From Isosphaera sp. (GTDB lineage: Bacteria > Planctomycetota > Planctomycetia > Gemmatales > Gemmataceae): 44,244 bases of DNA. Location of the stretch: positions 1-44,244 of the forward strand of contig PNKH01000067.1 in the NCBI GenBank assembly GCA_013822345.1, written 5' to 3'. The notes beneath the pieces were generated by a model, which was not told where the DNA came from, did no database searches, and worked only from the letters and a program-made list of their open reading frames with translations. The stretch's first letter is position 1. The number at the start of each line of letters is the position of its first letter. A program made the position numbers and the translations under genes. Below, one piece after another: positions 27,357 to 32,636 of the stretch.

Positions 27357-28787
27357 ATGGACACCCCTCCCGCCCGGCCGCCGGCCTGCGGCACCCCACA
27401 GCCCCACTGCCTCGCCGACCTCCTCCGCCGCGCCGCCCTGGCCCGTGTCGACCCGGCCGAGTTCGTCCGCCTGTGCCTGACCGGCCCGGGCGGCGAGCCG
27501 GTCGACCTGGCCCCGGTCCACGAGGAGCTGCAGGACTTCCTGTCGGCGCACCGGCTGGCGCTGGTCGAGCTGCCGCGGGACCACGGGAAGAGCTTCCAGG
27601 TGTGCGGGCGGGTGCTATGGGAGCTGGGCCGCAACCCCGGGCTGCGGGTCAAGGTGGTGTGCGCGACCGAGGCGGTGGCGGCCGAGCGGAGTCGGTTCCT
27701 GCGGGACATGGTGGCCGGGAACCCGGCGGTCCGGCTGGTGTTCCCGCACCTGGAGCCTGCGAGCCCGTGGGCGGCCGAGGCGTTCACCGTGGCCCGGCCG
27801 GCGGCGGCGATCGGGCCGAGCGTGGCGGCGTTCGGGGTCGGGGCCGGGACGACCGGGACGCGGGCGGACCTGCTGGTCTGCGACGACGTGGTGGACGTCA
27901 GGTCCTTGCACAGCCGGGCGGAGCGCGACCGGGCGGCGGACGCGTTCACGAACAACCTGATGAACCTGCTCGAACCTGGTGGGCGGTGTTGGGGGTTGTG
28001 CACCCCGTGGCACGCCGACGACCTGAACGCCCGGCTGAAGAAGAACCCGGCGTTCGCGGTGTTCCGGCGGGCGGTCGGGGCGGACTTCGAGCCGGTGTGG
28101 CCGGCGAAGTGGCCGGCGGAGCGGCTGAAGGAGCGGAAGGCGGAGATCGGGTCGGCGTCGTTCGCCCGCGGGTATCACCTGCGGGCGACGGCGGAGGACG
28201 ACACCCCGGTGCGGGCGGCGTGGGTGCGGTACTGGGACGAGCCGGCCGACGCCGAGACGGTGGTGCTGTCGGTGGACCCGGCGGTGAGCACGGCGGCGAC
28301 CGCCGACCGGTCGGCGCTGGTGGTGCTCGGTCGCGTGTCGTCCGAGCCGGAAGCGTCAGCGACGGGCTGGGGTTCGGTCCAGGTCCGCGTCTTGTCGGCG
28401 TCGGCGCGGCGGGTGCCGGCCCCGGAGCTGGTGACCCTGATCGACGCCCTGGACCGGCAGTGGAACCCGGCGGTGATCCTGTTCGAGTCGAACGCGGCGT
28501 TCCTGGGGATCAAGGACCTTCTGGCCCGGCACGCCCGGTTCGGCCCGCGGGTGAAGGGGGTGAGCCAGTCGGCGGACAAGCACTCGCGGGCGGCGGCGCT
28601 CGGGGTGGCGGTGGAGAACGGGGCGTTCCGCTTGAAGGGCGACGGGGCCGGCGGCCCGGACGCGGGCCAGCGGGAGCTGTTCGAGGAGATGACGACGTTC
28701 CCGTTCGGCGGGCACGACGACCTGCTGGACGCGGCCGCGACCGGGTGCGCGTACCTGCTGGAACGGCGGGAGCCGCGGGCGTGGTGA
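27357..28787 (+). CDS. Phage-type terminase large subunit (lone)
   Basis: The 476-residue product has an N-terminal ATPase domain with Walker A-like ELPRDHGKSF (about residues 71-80) and Walker B TRADLLVCDDVVD (D176/D177). A C-terminal RNase H-like nuclease domain has acidic residues in VLSVDPAVS (D307), ILFESNA (E377) and GGHDDLLDAAA (D454/D455). These are the TerL packaging-motor features. No portal, capsid or other phage gene lies nearby, so this is either a prophage remnant or a domesticated gene; the intact motifs argue against simple decay. A short stretch (about residues 329-340) appears to derive from a dispersed repeat. The ATG at 27357 lacks a clear Shine-Dalgarno. Confidence 0.85.
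   Translation: MDTPPARPPACGTPQPHCLADLLRRAALARVDPAEFVRLCLTGPGGEPVDLAPVHEELQDFLSAHRLALVELPRDHGKSFQVCGRVLWELGRNPGLRVKVVCATEAVAAERSRFLRDMVAGNPAVRLVFPHLEPASPWAAEAFTVARPAAAIGPSVAAFGVGAGTTGTRADLLVCDDVVDVRSLHSRAERDRAADAFTNNLMNLLEPGGRCWGLCTPWHADDLNARLKKNPAFAVFRRAVGADFEPVWPAKWPAERLKERKAEIGSASFARGYHLRATAEDDTPVRAAWVRYWDEPADAETVVLSVDPAVSTAATADRSALVVLGRVSSEPEASATGWGSVQVRVLSASARRVPAPELVTLIDALDRQWNPAVILFESNAAFLGIKDLLARHARFGPRVKGVSQSADKHSRAAALGVAVENGAFRLKGDGAGGPDAGQRELFEEMTTFPFGGHDDLLDAAATGCAYLLERREPRAW
28341..28377. repeat. Repeat-like segment inside the terminase coding sequence
   Basis: The segment, with core GAGCCGGAAGCGTCAGCGAC, resembles the arm of the inverted repeat at 33764-33795 (GAACCCGGAGCGTGAGCGAC). 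It adds about 12 in-frame residues (SEPEASATGWGS) in the nuclease domain between two strands. No matching inverted arm is adjacent. Confidence 0.45.
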
Positions 28788-29078: not shown

Positions 29079-29531
29079 GTGAGCTTTTCTGGCCTATTCG
29101 AGTTGAAGACGCCCGCAGACTTGTTCCGCAAGCTGGAACACGACCTTCGGCGGCTCGAAGCCGACGCTTTGGACGCATACGCGGCGTTCGACTTCTTTGT
29201 GACCGCCGAGCATATGCTGGACTGGGTTTACCCGGATGACCCGGATGCACGGGCCGCTGCGCGCCAGTCCGACCCGCTGTTGGAGGTCTGCTCACACCTT
29301 GCAAACGGCTCGAAGCACTTCCGTGCGACTCACCCGCGCCATCGCTCAGTGGACGACACTCGACAGCACGGGGGTGCTTTTTCCAGCGCGTTCAGCCGGG
29401 GCTTCGACATCTCACGGCTAGAGGTCGACCTCAAGGGCGACGCCGCAGCGGCACTCGGCAGCGTGGTCGAGGTAACGGACTTGGCTCGGGCGGTATTGTG
29501 CCACTGGCGGAGCCGGCTGGGGTTGTCGTGA
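29079..29531 (+). CDS. Hypothetical alpha-helical protein, possibly HEPN-like
   Basis: The 150-residue product is mostly helical and hydrophilic. Notable segments are LFRKLEHDLRRLEADALDAYAAFDFFVTAEHMLDW in outline, CSHLANGSKHF and LARAVLCHWRSR. The placement of LANGSKHF after a helix bundle resembles uncharacterised HEPN-like or DUF4145-type proteins, but the RNase motif (Rx4-6H) is not clearly present. Its DNA is visibly less GC-rich than the neighbours, suggesting transfer. The GTG at 29079 has GGAGG 8 nt upstream. It follows two terminase-side genes on the same strand. Confidence 0.6.
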   Translation: MSFSGLFELKTPADLFRKLEHDLRRLEADALDAYAAFDFFVTAEHMLDWVYPDDPDARAAARQSDPLLEVCSHLANGSKHFRATHPRHRSVDDTRQHGGAFSSAFSRGFDISRLEVDLKGDAAAALGSVVEVTDLARAVLCHWRSRLGLS

Positions 29532-30681: not shown

Positions 30682-31236
30682 TCAGACGAACAGGTCGGCG
30701 ACGGGGCACGCGAACCCGGGGATCACGTCCTCGCCGGACAGCGTGCCCGCCTCCCCCACCTCGGCACACGTCCCGTCGAGCCGCCGGACCAGGACCGTCC
30801 GCGTCTCCGGGCTGACCACCCAGATCAGTCTCACCTTGGCCGACTTGTAGTCCTCGACCCGCACCTGCACCTCGTCATAGGTGTCGTTCGGGGACGCCAC
30901 CTCGACGACCAGGTCCGGCGGGATCGGGATGTCGCCCTTCGGGGACTTGTCCCCGGCCAGCCGGCCCGCCGCCACGAACGACACGTCAGGCTTGCGGATC
31001 TGCCTCGGCTTGTTCGGGAAGCACCGGTACCCGGTCTGCGACCCGAACGCCAGCCCGCACCTGGTCTTCAGCGAGAACTGGTCGAGCAGACCGCCCAGCC
31101 GCAGCGCGACCCGGTCCGATTCCGCCCCCATGTGCTTCTCCGTGGGCACGCCGTCGATCAGCTCGTACCGGTCCCCGTCCGGCATCGCCAGTAGGTCTTC
31201 CGGCGCCAGCAGCCCCGGGCCGTTCGGCTCGTCCAT
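30682..31236 (-). CDS. Uma2-family (DUF820) putative endonuclease
   Basis: The 184-residue product matches the Uma2 family, which has a PD-(D/E)xK nuclease fold. Visible elements are RYELIDGVPTE (E25), KPDVSFVAAG (D84), PPDLVVEVASPND (E112) and VEDYKSAKVRLIWVV with the Lys that may complete the site. Uma2 proteins are expanded in cyanobacteria and planctomycetes, often near repeats, and their role is unresolved. The ATG at 31236 begins the family-typical N-terminus (LAPEDLLAMPDGDRYELI). It converges on the LTXXQ-like gene and is divergent from the ATPase-acetyltransferase gene (64-bp gap). Confidence 0.88.
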   Translation of the reverse strand: MDEPNGPGLLAPEDLLAMPDGDRYELIDGVPTEKHMGAESDRVALRLGGLLDQFSLKTRCGLAFGSQTGYRCFPNKPRQIRKPDVSFVAAGRLAGDKSPKGDIPIPPDLVVEVASPNDTYDEVQVRVEDYKSAKVRLIWVVSPETRTVLVRRLDGTCAEVGEAGTLSGEDVIPGFACPVADLFV

Positions 31237-31300: not shown

Positions 31301-32497
31301 GTGCTCGCCCCGATCACCGTCCGCTACACGTTCCGCCCGGCCCGCCGGTCGCTCGCCACCGGCCGGGTCGCCGACCTGTTCGGCCTGCCCGAGCACGAGC
31401 CGCCGCACGCCGTCGCCGAAGACCTCGTTCTCGACATCCGGCCCGGCGACCTCGTCCTGTTCACCGGCCCGAGCGGGTCCGGGAAGTCGTCGCTCCTGCG
31501 GGCCGTCGCCGACCAGGTCGGGGCCGCCGACGCCTTCGCCCTGCCGCTGCCCGACGCCCCGCTCGTCGACGCCCTGCCCGGCCTGGTCGAGGACCGCCTC
31601 GCCACCCTCGCCGGGTGCGGCCTGTCCGAGGCGCGTTTGCTCCTCCGCACGCCGGCAGAGCTGAGCGAGGGGCAGCGGTACCGGTTCCGGCTCGCCTACG
31701 CCCTGACCGCCGGTGCGCCGTGGGTCGCCGCCGACGAGTTCACCGCCACCCTCGACCGCACCCTCGCCAAGGTGGTGGCGTTCAACCTGCGGAAGCTCGT
31801 GGCCCGCACCGGCGTCGGGGTGCTGGCCGCGACCACCCACGAGGACGTGACCGACGACCTGCAGCCCGACCTGCTGGTGCGGTGCCACGGGGACGGGCGG
31901 GTCGAGGCGGAACGCCGGGGGTGGAAAAGACGCCCCGTCTCGTTCGCCGACGAGTTCTGGCTGTCCGCCGGGACCCGATCCGACTGGCCGCACTTCGCTC
32001 GGTGGCATTACCGCAGCCACCACCCCGGGTTCGTCCGCCGGGTGATCCTCCTGTGGCACGGCCGCGAGGCGGTCGGGGTGTGCGTGTTCGGCACCCCGGC
32101 CGCGTCGCTGTCCCTGCGGACCCGGTTCTTCGGGCTGCGCGACCCGCGGTCCGGGGTGGCGCTGGCCGCCCTGAACGAGCAACTGTGGCTGCTCCAGCGG
32201 GTGGTGCTCCACCCGACGTACCGCGGGGCCGGGGTCGCCGCCGCGTTCGTCCGCCGGGCGTGCGAGCTGTGCCCGGTCGACTGGGTCGAGACGCTGTCCG
32301 CGATGGGGCAGACGAACCCGTTCTTCGAGCGGGCCGGGTTCGTCCGGGTCGGGGTGTTCCGCAAGTCCGGGCGAACGGGCCGGGGTTACGGGGCGTACAC
32401 CGCGAAGGGGGTGCGGGTGTCGGCCGAGACGGCGGCGAAGAGCCGGTTCAGCGAGCCGGTGTACTACGTGTTCGACAACCGCCGCCGCGGTTCGTAA
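31301..32497 (+). CDS. ABC-type ATPase fused to an acetyltransferase-like domain (COG2401-like)
   Basis: The 398-residue product has an N-terminal ABC ATPase with Walker A FTGPSGSGKSS (about residues 54-64), a signature-like LSEGQRYRF (about 122-130) and Walker B WVAADEFTATLD (D146/E147). The C-terminal half (about 205-385) is GNAT-like: HFARWHYRSHHPG, VILLWHGREAVGVCVFG and LQRVVLHPTYRGAGVAAAFVRR, which carries the acetyl-CoA-binding pattern. It closely fits COG2401, ABC ATPase fused to a predicted acetyltransferase. The GNAT half has a general resemblance to phage Mom-type enzymes, but that is speculative. It has no TM segment. The GTG at 31301 has GGAGG 6 nt upstream. The function is unknown. 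Confidence 0.85.
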   Translation: MLAPITVRYTFRPARRSLATGRVADLFGLPEHEPPHAVAEDLVLDIRPGDLVLFTGPSGSGKSSLLRAVADQVGAADAFALPLPDAPLVDALPGLVEDRLATLAGCGLSEARLLLRTPAELSEGQRYRFRLAYALTAGAPWVAADEFTATLDRTLAKVVAFNLRKLVARTGVGVLAATTHEDVTDDLQPDLLVRCHGDGRVEAERRGWKRRPVSFADEFWLSAGTRSDWPHFARWHYRSHHPGFVRRVILLWHGREAVGVCVFGTPAASLSLRTRFFGLRDPRSGVALAALNEQLWLLQRVVLHPTYRGAGVAAAFVRRACELCPVDWVETLSAMGQTNPFFERAGFVRVGVFRKSGRTGRGYGAYTAKGVRVSAETAAKSRFSEPVYYVFDNRRRGS

Positions 32498-32507
32498 CGT
32501 CTCCCCC

Positions 32508-32636
32508 ATGACCCCGCCGCGACCGAAGCCGCTCGGCCCGCTCGTCCACGCCGTGCTGGTGCTGTTCACCGTCGCCGCCATCCCGCTGCTGATCGCCCTG
32601 CCGTTCCTCCTGTCCGGGTTCCTCGGCCGGGACTGA
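32508..32636 (+). CDS. 42-residue single-TM protein
   Basis: The product MTPPRPKPLGPLVHA... is a short Pro/basic N-terminus followed by one hydrophobic segment (VLVLFTVAAIPLLIALPFLL) and the end SGFLGRD. It starts 10 nt after the ATPase-acetyltransferase stop codon on the same strand, so it may be part of that operon. There is no good Shine-Dalgarno, but the codon usage (G/C in nearly every third position) matches neighbouring genes. Confidence 0.5.
   Translation: MTPPRPKPLGPLVHAVLVLFTVAAIPLLIALPFLLSGFLGRD

Follow-up and report, generated by a model that had tools for sequence, protein, structure and literature searches.

Gene transfer agents (GTAs) are phage-derived, have several origins, and can be encoded at loci up to hundreds of kilobases apart, according to the text of PMC11841831 consulted. 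The genes described here resemble GTAs such as RcGTA and CcGTA, as portrayed in that text, in comprising phage-derived packaging and structural genes, in occupying scattered loci, and in descending vertically. RcGTA and CcGTA belong to another phylum, whereas the planctomycete candidates have two differing sets of terminase and portal and carry genes for an ABC ATPase and a GNAT domain (ABC-GNAT) beside the terminase. Unlike GTAs, the family of our locus has no recognized tail genes, and the system is known here from genes alone. No planctomycete GTA was found in the literature searched, a search in which subscription papers mostly fell outside; in the portions of text retrieved, the phrase stood within a reference (PMC12213060), concerned Rhodobacteraceae (PMC13055281), or was a passing mention (PMC8622608).

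The domain pair itself has been described in jumbo phages. In the text of PMC7824862 consulted, which cites an earlier paper, GNAT-ABC ATPase proteins are predicted to make an uncharacterized acyl modification of a DNA base. The gene studied here shares with those proteins both the domain pair and the prediction; inherited chromosomal packaging systems are not mentioned in the text consulted. Likewise, Salmonella phage SSU5, Rhizobium phage RHEph10, Gordonia phage NHagos, and Leptospira phage LE3 encode an ABC ATPase and a GNAT, fused or adjacent, near a terminase. Those cassettes sit in whole phages, with a ParB-like gene first and the terminase after, whereas in the family of our locus the terminase large subunit (TerL) comes first and the module gave no ParB-like match. 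A further relative is Mom of phage Mu, which resembles the GNAT half in fold and lacks an ABC ATPase; for our protein, modification activity is only predicted. On comparative grounds, we consider it likely that the ABC-GNAT gene is part of a domesticated, phage-derived packaging system, a candidate GTA, of Gemmataceae.

The ABC ATPase-GNAT gene and its neighbors

The window, by which we mean the entire 44,244-nucleotide stretch analyzed, corresponds to contig C67 of a Gemmataceae draft genome (G000) that totals 7.47 Mb. At 31301..32497 on the forward strand, it encodes a 398-amino-acid protein with a GTG start. The earlier note had read this protein as an ABC ATPase fused to a GNAT domain, and a Pfam search, an AlphaFold model, and invariant motifs agree on that architecture. 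The ABC ATPase half (residues 1 to 211; 31301..31933, forward) contains a Walker A motif (GPSGSGKSS), signature (LSEGQ), Walker B motif (AADEF), and H-loop (ATTHED), and the 398-amino-acid protein matched PF00005 (ABC_tran) at 2.6e-9, above the cut-off. The GNAT half (residues 212 to 398; 31934..32494, forward) carries a WHYR motif and the acyl-CoA loop YRGAG; GNAT families fell below Pfam cut-offs, PF13508 matching residues 293 to 348 at 1.3e-4. Across 19 of 19 aligned fusions, the window's included, the cores of Walker A, signature, Walker B (DE), H-loop, and the YRGxG acyl-CoA loop are invariant. The AlphaFold model has a mean pLDDT of 87.8, and its first half resembles ABC ATPases. A VIA search with the whole model reached only the ABC half; therefore, the GNAT half was predicted and searched separately, which returned GNAT folds with Z scores of 11.3 to 13.5 among the 50 best matches listed. 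The full-length protein matches a Leptospira phage LE4 protein in structure (TMq 0.72), and a phage homolog is annotated as "MK0520 protein, ABC-type ATPase fused to a predicted acetyltransferase domain". Features of the MK0520/COG2401-type class, namely the ABC motifs, the GNAT acyl-CoA motif, and full-length likeness to phage members, are thus present.

Mu Mom (PDB 8bv8) was the top solved structure for the GNAT half (Z 13.5, rmsd 4.1, 151 of 187 residues aligned), with the second-ranked structure less than 1 Z below it at Z 12.6, a tie under the rule of the tool. In a viral structure library, Mom of phage FSL SP-031 took rank 2 (E 3e-8). Alignment of the GNAT half with Mu Mom by hhalign gave a probability of 1.6%, that is, no significant sequence match, and the match of the window's protein to phrog_1384 was weak (E 0.021). 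We describe the modeled GNAT half as Mom-like by fold only.

The genes around ABC-GNAT differ in how regularly they recur. A 42-amino-acid hydrophobic open reading frame (ORF) at 32508..32636 (forward), which starts 10 nt past the ABC-GNAT stop, is present as the earlier note described it; it is probably a real gene, because relatives exist in 10 other sequences among the 42 searched (11 with the window), some of them near other ABC-GNAT genes, and it lies outside the core. The divergent Uma2-family nuclease-fold gene at 30682..31236 (reverse) is likewise real (PF05685, 3.8e-28), an optional recurrent neighbor found near ABC-GNAT in 10 of 33 module loci, the window included. A third neighbor, a 150-amino-acid ORF at 29079..29531, had been put forward as possibly HEPN-like. 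It matched no Pfam, NCBIfam, PHROG, or PADLOC family and is absent from the 41 other sequences, and the HEPN assignment was dropped for want of both family and conservation. A 135-amino-acid ORF is also confined to the window among the 42 sequences. With these two ORFs peculiar to the window and Uma2 in just 10 of 33 loci, the suggested cluster of accessory genes does not form a set with ABC-GNAT.

Terminase and head genes in Gemmataceae

The partner that does recur is TerL. The gene at 27357..28787 (forward) is a genuine TerL (phrog_38, 5.8e-74) whose ATPase (PRDHGKS, CDD) and RNase H-like nuclease residues are intact, and none of these motif residues varies among the 26 sequences aligned, the window's included. 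Its description as isolated did not hold, since TerL is a conserved partner of ABC-GNAT. ABC-GNAT of this type (≥55% identity) occurs in 33 of 95 family genomes, fused in 19, split into adjacent genes in 13, and reduced to the GNAT half in one (G051); that the same pair appears both split and fused points to a working unit. Every one of these 33 genomes also holds the module TerL (one as a fragment), and 60 of the 95 have neither. By profile search, the module TerL was found in 35 genomes, the additional two being G019 and G047; in G047, TerL stops 64 nt short of the contig edge, on the side where ABC-GNAT would come. The match is single in 33 of the 35, the other two, G045 and G046, having additional copies or fragments. 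TerL lies upstream on the same strand and contig in 27 of 33 loci, the window included, and is often immediately adjacent. The exceptions are three loci (L041, L045, and L056) that lie at most about 2.2 kb from a contig end and have their TerL on a separate contig, two genomes with TerL and ABC-GNAT on different contigs (G045 and G046), and G051, where a TerL fragment lies about 12 kb from the GNAT gene. We did not count G012 and G094 as carriers; their weak TerL matches (about 1e-22) stand beside portal-like and capsid-like genes in a prophage-like setting.

In relatives, the small ORF preceding TerL is the terminase small subunit (TerS; phrog_2538, 3.9e-6). Three TerS query sequences, run against 42 sequences, found relatives in 16 to 19 of them and none in the window. 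There is also a second, more distant type of ABC-GNAT (30 to 40% identity, E ≤1e-10), present in at least about 42 of the 95 family genomes among the matches listed. Twenty of its loci (L078 to L097) were fetched; ParB-like matches occurred in four and a Rhizobium-phage-type TerL match in L088. The module-type TerL was absent from all 20 stretches, and the distant type was set aside as a module member.

Head genes of nearly the same genomes complete a recognizable packaging set: portal (PF04860), protease (PF04586), capsid (PF05065), and connector (PF05135), in addition to TerS (phrog_2538) and TerL (phrog_38). The head block runs in the order small ORF, portal, protease, capsid, phrog_5707 protein, connector, small ORF. 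The capsid profile matched 39 of 95 genomes at 1e-10, 34 of them strongly (≤1e-100), with some partial genes. The portal belongs to a wide family, so that 69 of 95 genomes match at 1e-10 and the carrier call depends on the gap between the 33 strong matches (≤1e-187) and the next at 1e-45; fragments in G051 bring the carriers to 34. TerL, ABC-GNAT, capsid, and portal are all present in 30 of the 36 genomes having any of the four, and pairwise Fisher tests, which ignore kinship, gave p values of 3e-19 to 2e-23. Among the 36, capsid is missing from G007 and G090 and portal from G007 and G091. G002 has capsid and portal without TerL or ABC-GNAT, and G007 the reverse; these two drafts are 83 and 86% complete.

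The distance between the head and TerL blocks varies widely. In G071, portal, protease, capsid, connector, TerL, and ABC-GNAT are contiguous within about 8 kb, in G031 the two blocks are divergent neighbors, and in G059 they are about 15 kb apart. They are separated by 1.85 Mb on one scaffold in G022 and lie at 0.18 and 7.37 Mb of a single 7.8-Mb contig in G087. In the window's genome they are on contigs C67 and C51, and in most drafts they are likewise on different contigs, an arrangement that does not prove distance. G051 (9.4 Mb, one contig) retains only pieces of TerL, capsid, and portal, and its GNAT gene has no matched ABC half nearby; it is a decayed system. The ORFs flanking the head block appear host-type by eye; in L340 (5.6 to 9.7 kb), ORFs past the head block resemble JAB-like and E2-like proteins, again by eye. 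No tail gene was recognized by eye around the Gemmataceae head block. Two tail searches, both weak, gave nothing consistent: PF10145 matched 6 of 21 Gemmataceae genomes without pattern, and a 385-amino-acid protein from a 45-kb viral contig (see below), used as a tail probe with no positive control, found nothing in 14 genomes.

The presence of head genes bears on the proposal of a defense locus. In PADLOC, ABC-GNAT matched eight families (best mad3, 1.5e-11), all listed stretches lying within the ABC half; Uma2 matched a candidate system (PDC-S03, 4e-12); and neither TerL nor the 150-amino-acid ORF matched a family. A stand-alone defense island was set aside after this comparison. What stands of the earlier reading is the phage derivation, borne out by the TerL-ABC-GNAT module and its co-occurring capsid genes, together with a likely nucleic-acid-related role; the island and the defense function found no support. 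A more specific version would be a restriction-modification-like system in which ABC-GNAT marks self DNA, TerL acts as a translocating nuclease that cuts unmarked DNA, and the capsid genes are unrelated. Its appeal lies in the intact ATPase and nuclease residues of TerL, the Mom-like GNAT half, and the candidate match of Uma2 where it adjoins. Yet capsid and portal co-occur with ABC-GNAT almost as tightly as TerL does, TerL has no PADLOC family, and packaging cassettes contain several of the phage homologs, so we regard this version as highly improbable.

Inheritance and interruption of the packaging genes

We compared pairwise distances of each part with those of rpoB, using nearly full-length sequences only, which cover 25 to 32 of the 36 genomes. 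The second TerL of G046 and the phage or prophage rows G108, G135, G322, G012, and G094 were excluded beforehand, and the GNAT alignment was made without L058 and L066 (internal stop). Correlations with rpoB were high for TerL (r = 0.89, n = 28), capsid (0.88, n = 25), portal (0.86, n = 27), and protease (0.84, n = 27), followed by ABC (0.80, n = 27) and GNAT (0.66, n = 28), with p = 0.0005 for each over 2000 permutations. Tree splits in common with rpoB numbered 14 of 22 for capsid, 14 of 24 for portal, 14 of 25 for TerL, 9 of 24 for ABC, and 8 of 25 for GNAT; shuffled labels gave about 0.3 common splits and at most 4. Because ABC and GNAT track rpoB less tightly, GNAT least of all, exchange among relatives is possible for these two. 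Among close pairs, dN/dS was 0.02 to 0.14 for capsid, 0.03 to 0.12 for portal, 0.05 to 0.27 for protease, 0.08 to 0.39 for TerL, 0.08 to 0.24 for ABC, and 0.07 to 0.30 for GNAT, with rpoB at 0.01 to 0.05. The parts co-occur, are dispersed, descend in the manner of rpoB, and are under purifying selection. The earlier note had named core-genome conservation with no accessory genes in relatives as evidence against its reading; the distribution is instead patchy, at 33 of 95 genomes, and the descent does look vertical.

Some head genes are interrupted. In the window's genome, an element of about 16 kb (contig C51, about 11.0 to 27.0 kb; L134/L135) interrupts the head protease gene, and for this reason the system of this genome may be inactive at present. 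The element carries a 590-amino-acid recombinase-like ORF and a terminase-like ORF, both recognized by eye, and an ORF with a sub-threshold tape-measure match. An element of about 14 kb that carries a separate portal-like gene splits the capsid gene of G087 (L255), and one of about 24 kb splits that of the IMG/VR contig IMGVR_UViG_3300037479_000622 (L350/L352). The two capsid break points nearly coincide (residues about 228 to 241 in G087 and 236 in the IMG/VR contig). These head genes may serve other phages as integration sites; no repeats longer than 12 nt were found at the interrupted head genes, and another repeat search yielded weak family repeats only. Altogether, 17 IMG/VR contigs classed as viral hold relatives of the capsid. 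Thirteen are 4 to 10 kb long with 65 to 76% identity, and the seven inspected carry the same head block or part of it; we tentatively read the short contigs as misfiled host loci. One 45-kb contig, with 49% capsid identity, looks like a true phage relative.

Such interruptions, the fragments in G051, the existence of relatives in phages, and the fact that every part is a phage gene might suggest decaying prophages of one phage group, acquired repeatedly and dispersed as debris. Debris of that kind is hard to reconcile with purifying selection on all parts, a single TerL match in 33 of 35 genomes, distances and tree splits that resemble those of rpoB, the preservation of the TerL motif residues in all 26 aligned sequences, and the joint occurrence of the parts, which indicates co-inheritance. 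We consider repeated acquisition quite improbable: the pattern is that of inherited, functional genes, not of repeatedly captured prophages.

Related cassettes in phages and a second planctomycete family

Initial viral scans with single sequences found no relative; 71 of 50,697 phage records match ABC-GNAT. We opened seven phage regions (NHagos, LE3, RHEph10, SSU5, Cyrano, EastWest, and Komp_PAO1_1). Four of them (NHagos, LE3, RHEph10, and SSU5) have a ParB-like gene, ABC-GNAT, and then terminase, with unnamed genes between; the SSU5 order runs across the record ends, and none of the RHEph10 genes is annotated as GNAT. The Cyrano record ends in ParB-like, ABC, and GNAT genes, and a terminase context is absent from the opened regions of Arthrobacter phage EastWest and Pseudomonas phage Komp_PAO1_1. 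Outside phages and planctomycetes, the Bathyarchaeota genome A05DMB-2 has five ABC-GNAT loci (L196, L211, L215, L226, and L230).

Across the phylum, 40 of 392 genomes match the ABC-GNAT profile at 1e-40: the window's genome, 16 genomes of one other family in the same class (split genes in 14, a fusion in 2), and 23 genomes from further families. In the second family, ABC-GNAT precedes a different TerL (phrog_9) in 16 of 16 loci, ORF clustering places a ParB-like gene before it in 11 of 16, and HTH and TerS-like ORFs were recognized in some loci. In PADLOC, the ParB-like protein had a match of its own, to the N-terminal part of a model for type II methyltransferase (5e-36). The portal of this family (phrog_21) gave one strong match in each of the 16 carriers; nine listed genomes of the family without the cassette gave no strong match and two weak ones (9e-23 and 1e-7). 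These figures come from an alignment of true portals, since PF04860 matched 6 of 16 genomes and hit a true portal only in G409, weakly. The portal adjoins the cassette in 3 genomes; in 5 it shares a contig with the cassette at a distance of 44 to 231 kb, and in the remaining 8 the two lie on different contigs. G467 has the set clustered within about 20 kb, where matches to head, neck, and tape-measure families stand alongside several proteins that match nothing. Among the other 23 genomes, G105 has a two-ORF TerL of the module type with a portal close downstream and is prophage-like.

The traits of GTAs seen in these systems are chromosomal phage-type head and packaging genes, unlinked loci, and, in Gemmataceae only, vertical descent with purifying selection; the fit extends no further than a candidate GTA-like system. 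With just head and packaging genes recognized in Gemmataceae, one could instead picture a tail-less shell that stores or exports DNA, or a satellite dependent on tails from other phages. Tail genes may, however, sit at a third locus that escaped notice, neck and tape-measure matches do exist in the parallel family (G467), and inspection of the contiguous G071 locus revealed no integrase. A non-GTA capsid system of this sort seems to us improbable.

How might ABC-GNAT serve a domesticated packaging system? One chromosomal locus would supply TerL and ABC-GNAT, with TerS ahead of them in many relatives, and the other would supply portal, head protease, major capsid protein, and connector. Given that terminase is a recurrent companion in several phages and two chromosomal systems, we infer that ABC-GNAT acts on DNA awaiting packaging. 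The ABC ATPase could dimerize on DNA, with ATP driving clamping or remodeling beside the terminase, and could hand the DNA to the Mom-like GNAT half, which would move an acyl group from acyl-CoA onto a base amine. Packaged DNA would then be chemically marked, either to survive restriction in the recipient or to set terminase cut sites. A bolder proposal, which we offer as speculation and think unlikely in its full form, is that planctomycetes domesticated two different phages as GTA systems, that both retain the ABC-Mom-like enzyme to acyl-mark outgoing host DNA against recipient restriction, and that other phages integrate in the head genes. If true, the presence of two parallel, domesticated systems for packaging within a single phylum would broaden the known range of GTAs, and the long-predicted ABC-GNAT family would gain a testable role from the retention of a DNA-modifying enzyme where no phage genome needs protection.

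One of the 16 carriers in the second family, G415, also has a 37,010-bp second replicon with a portal gene of another family (C2:5359-6336); this replicon is perhaps a phage-plasmid.
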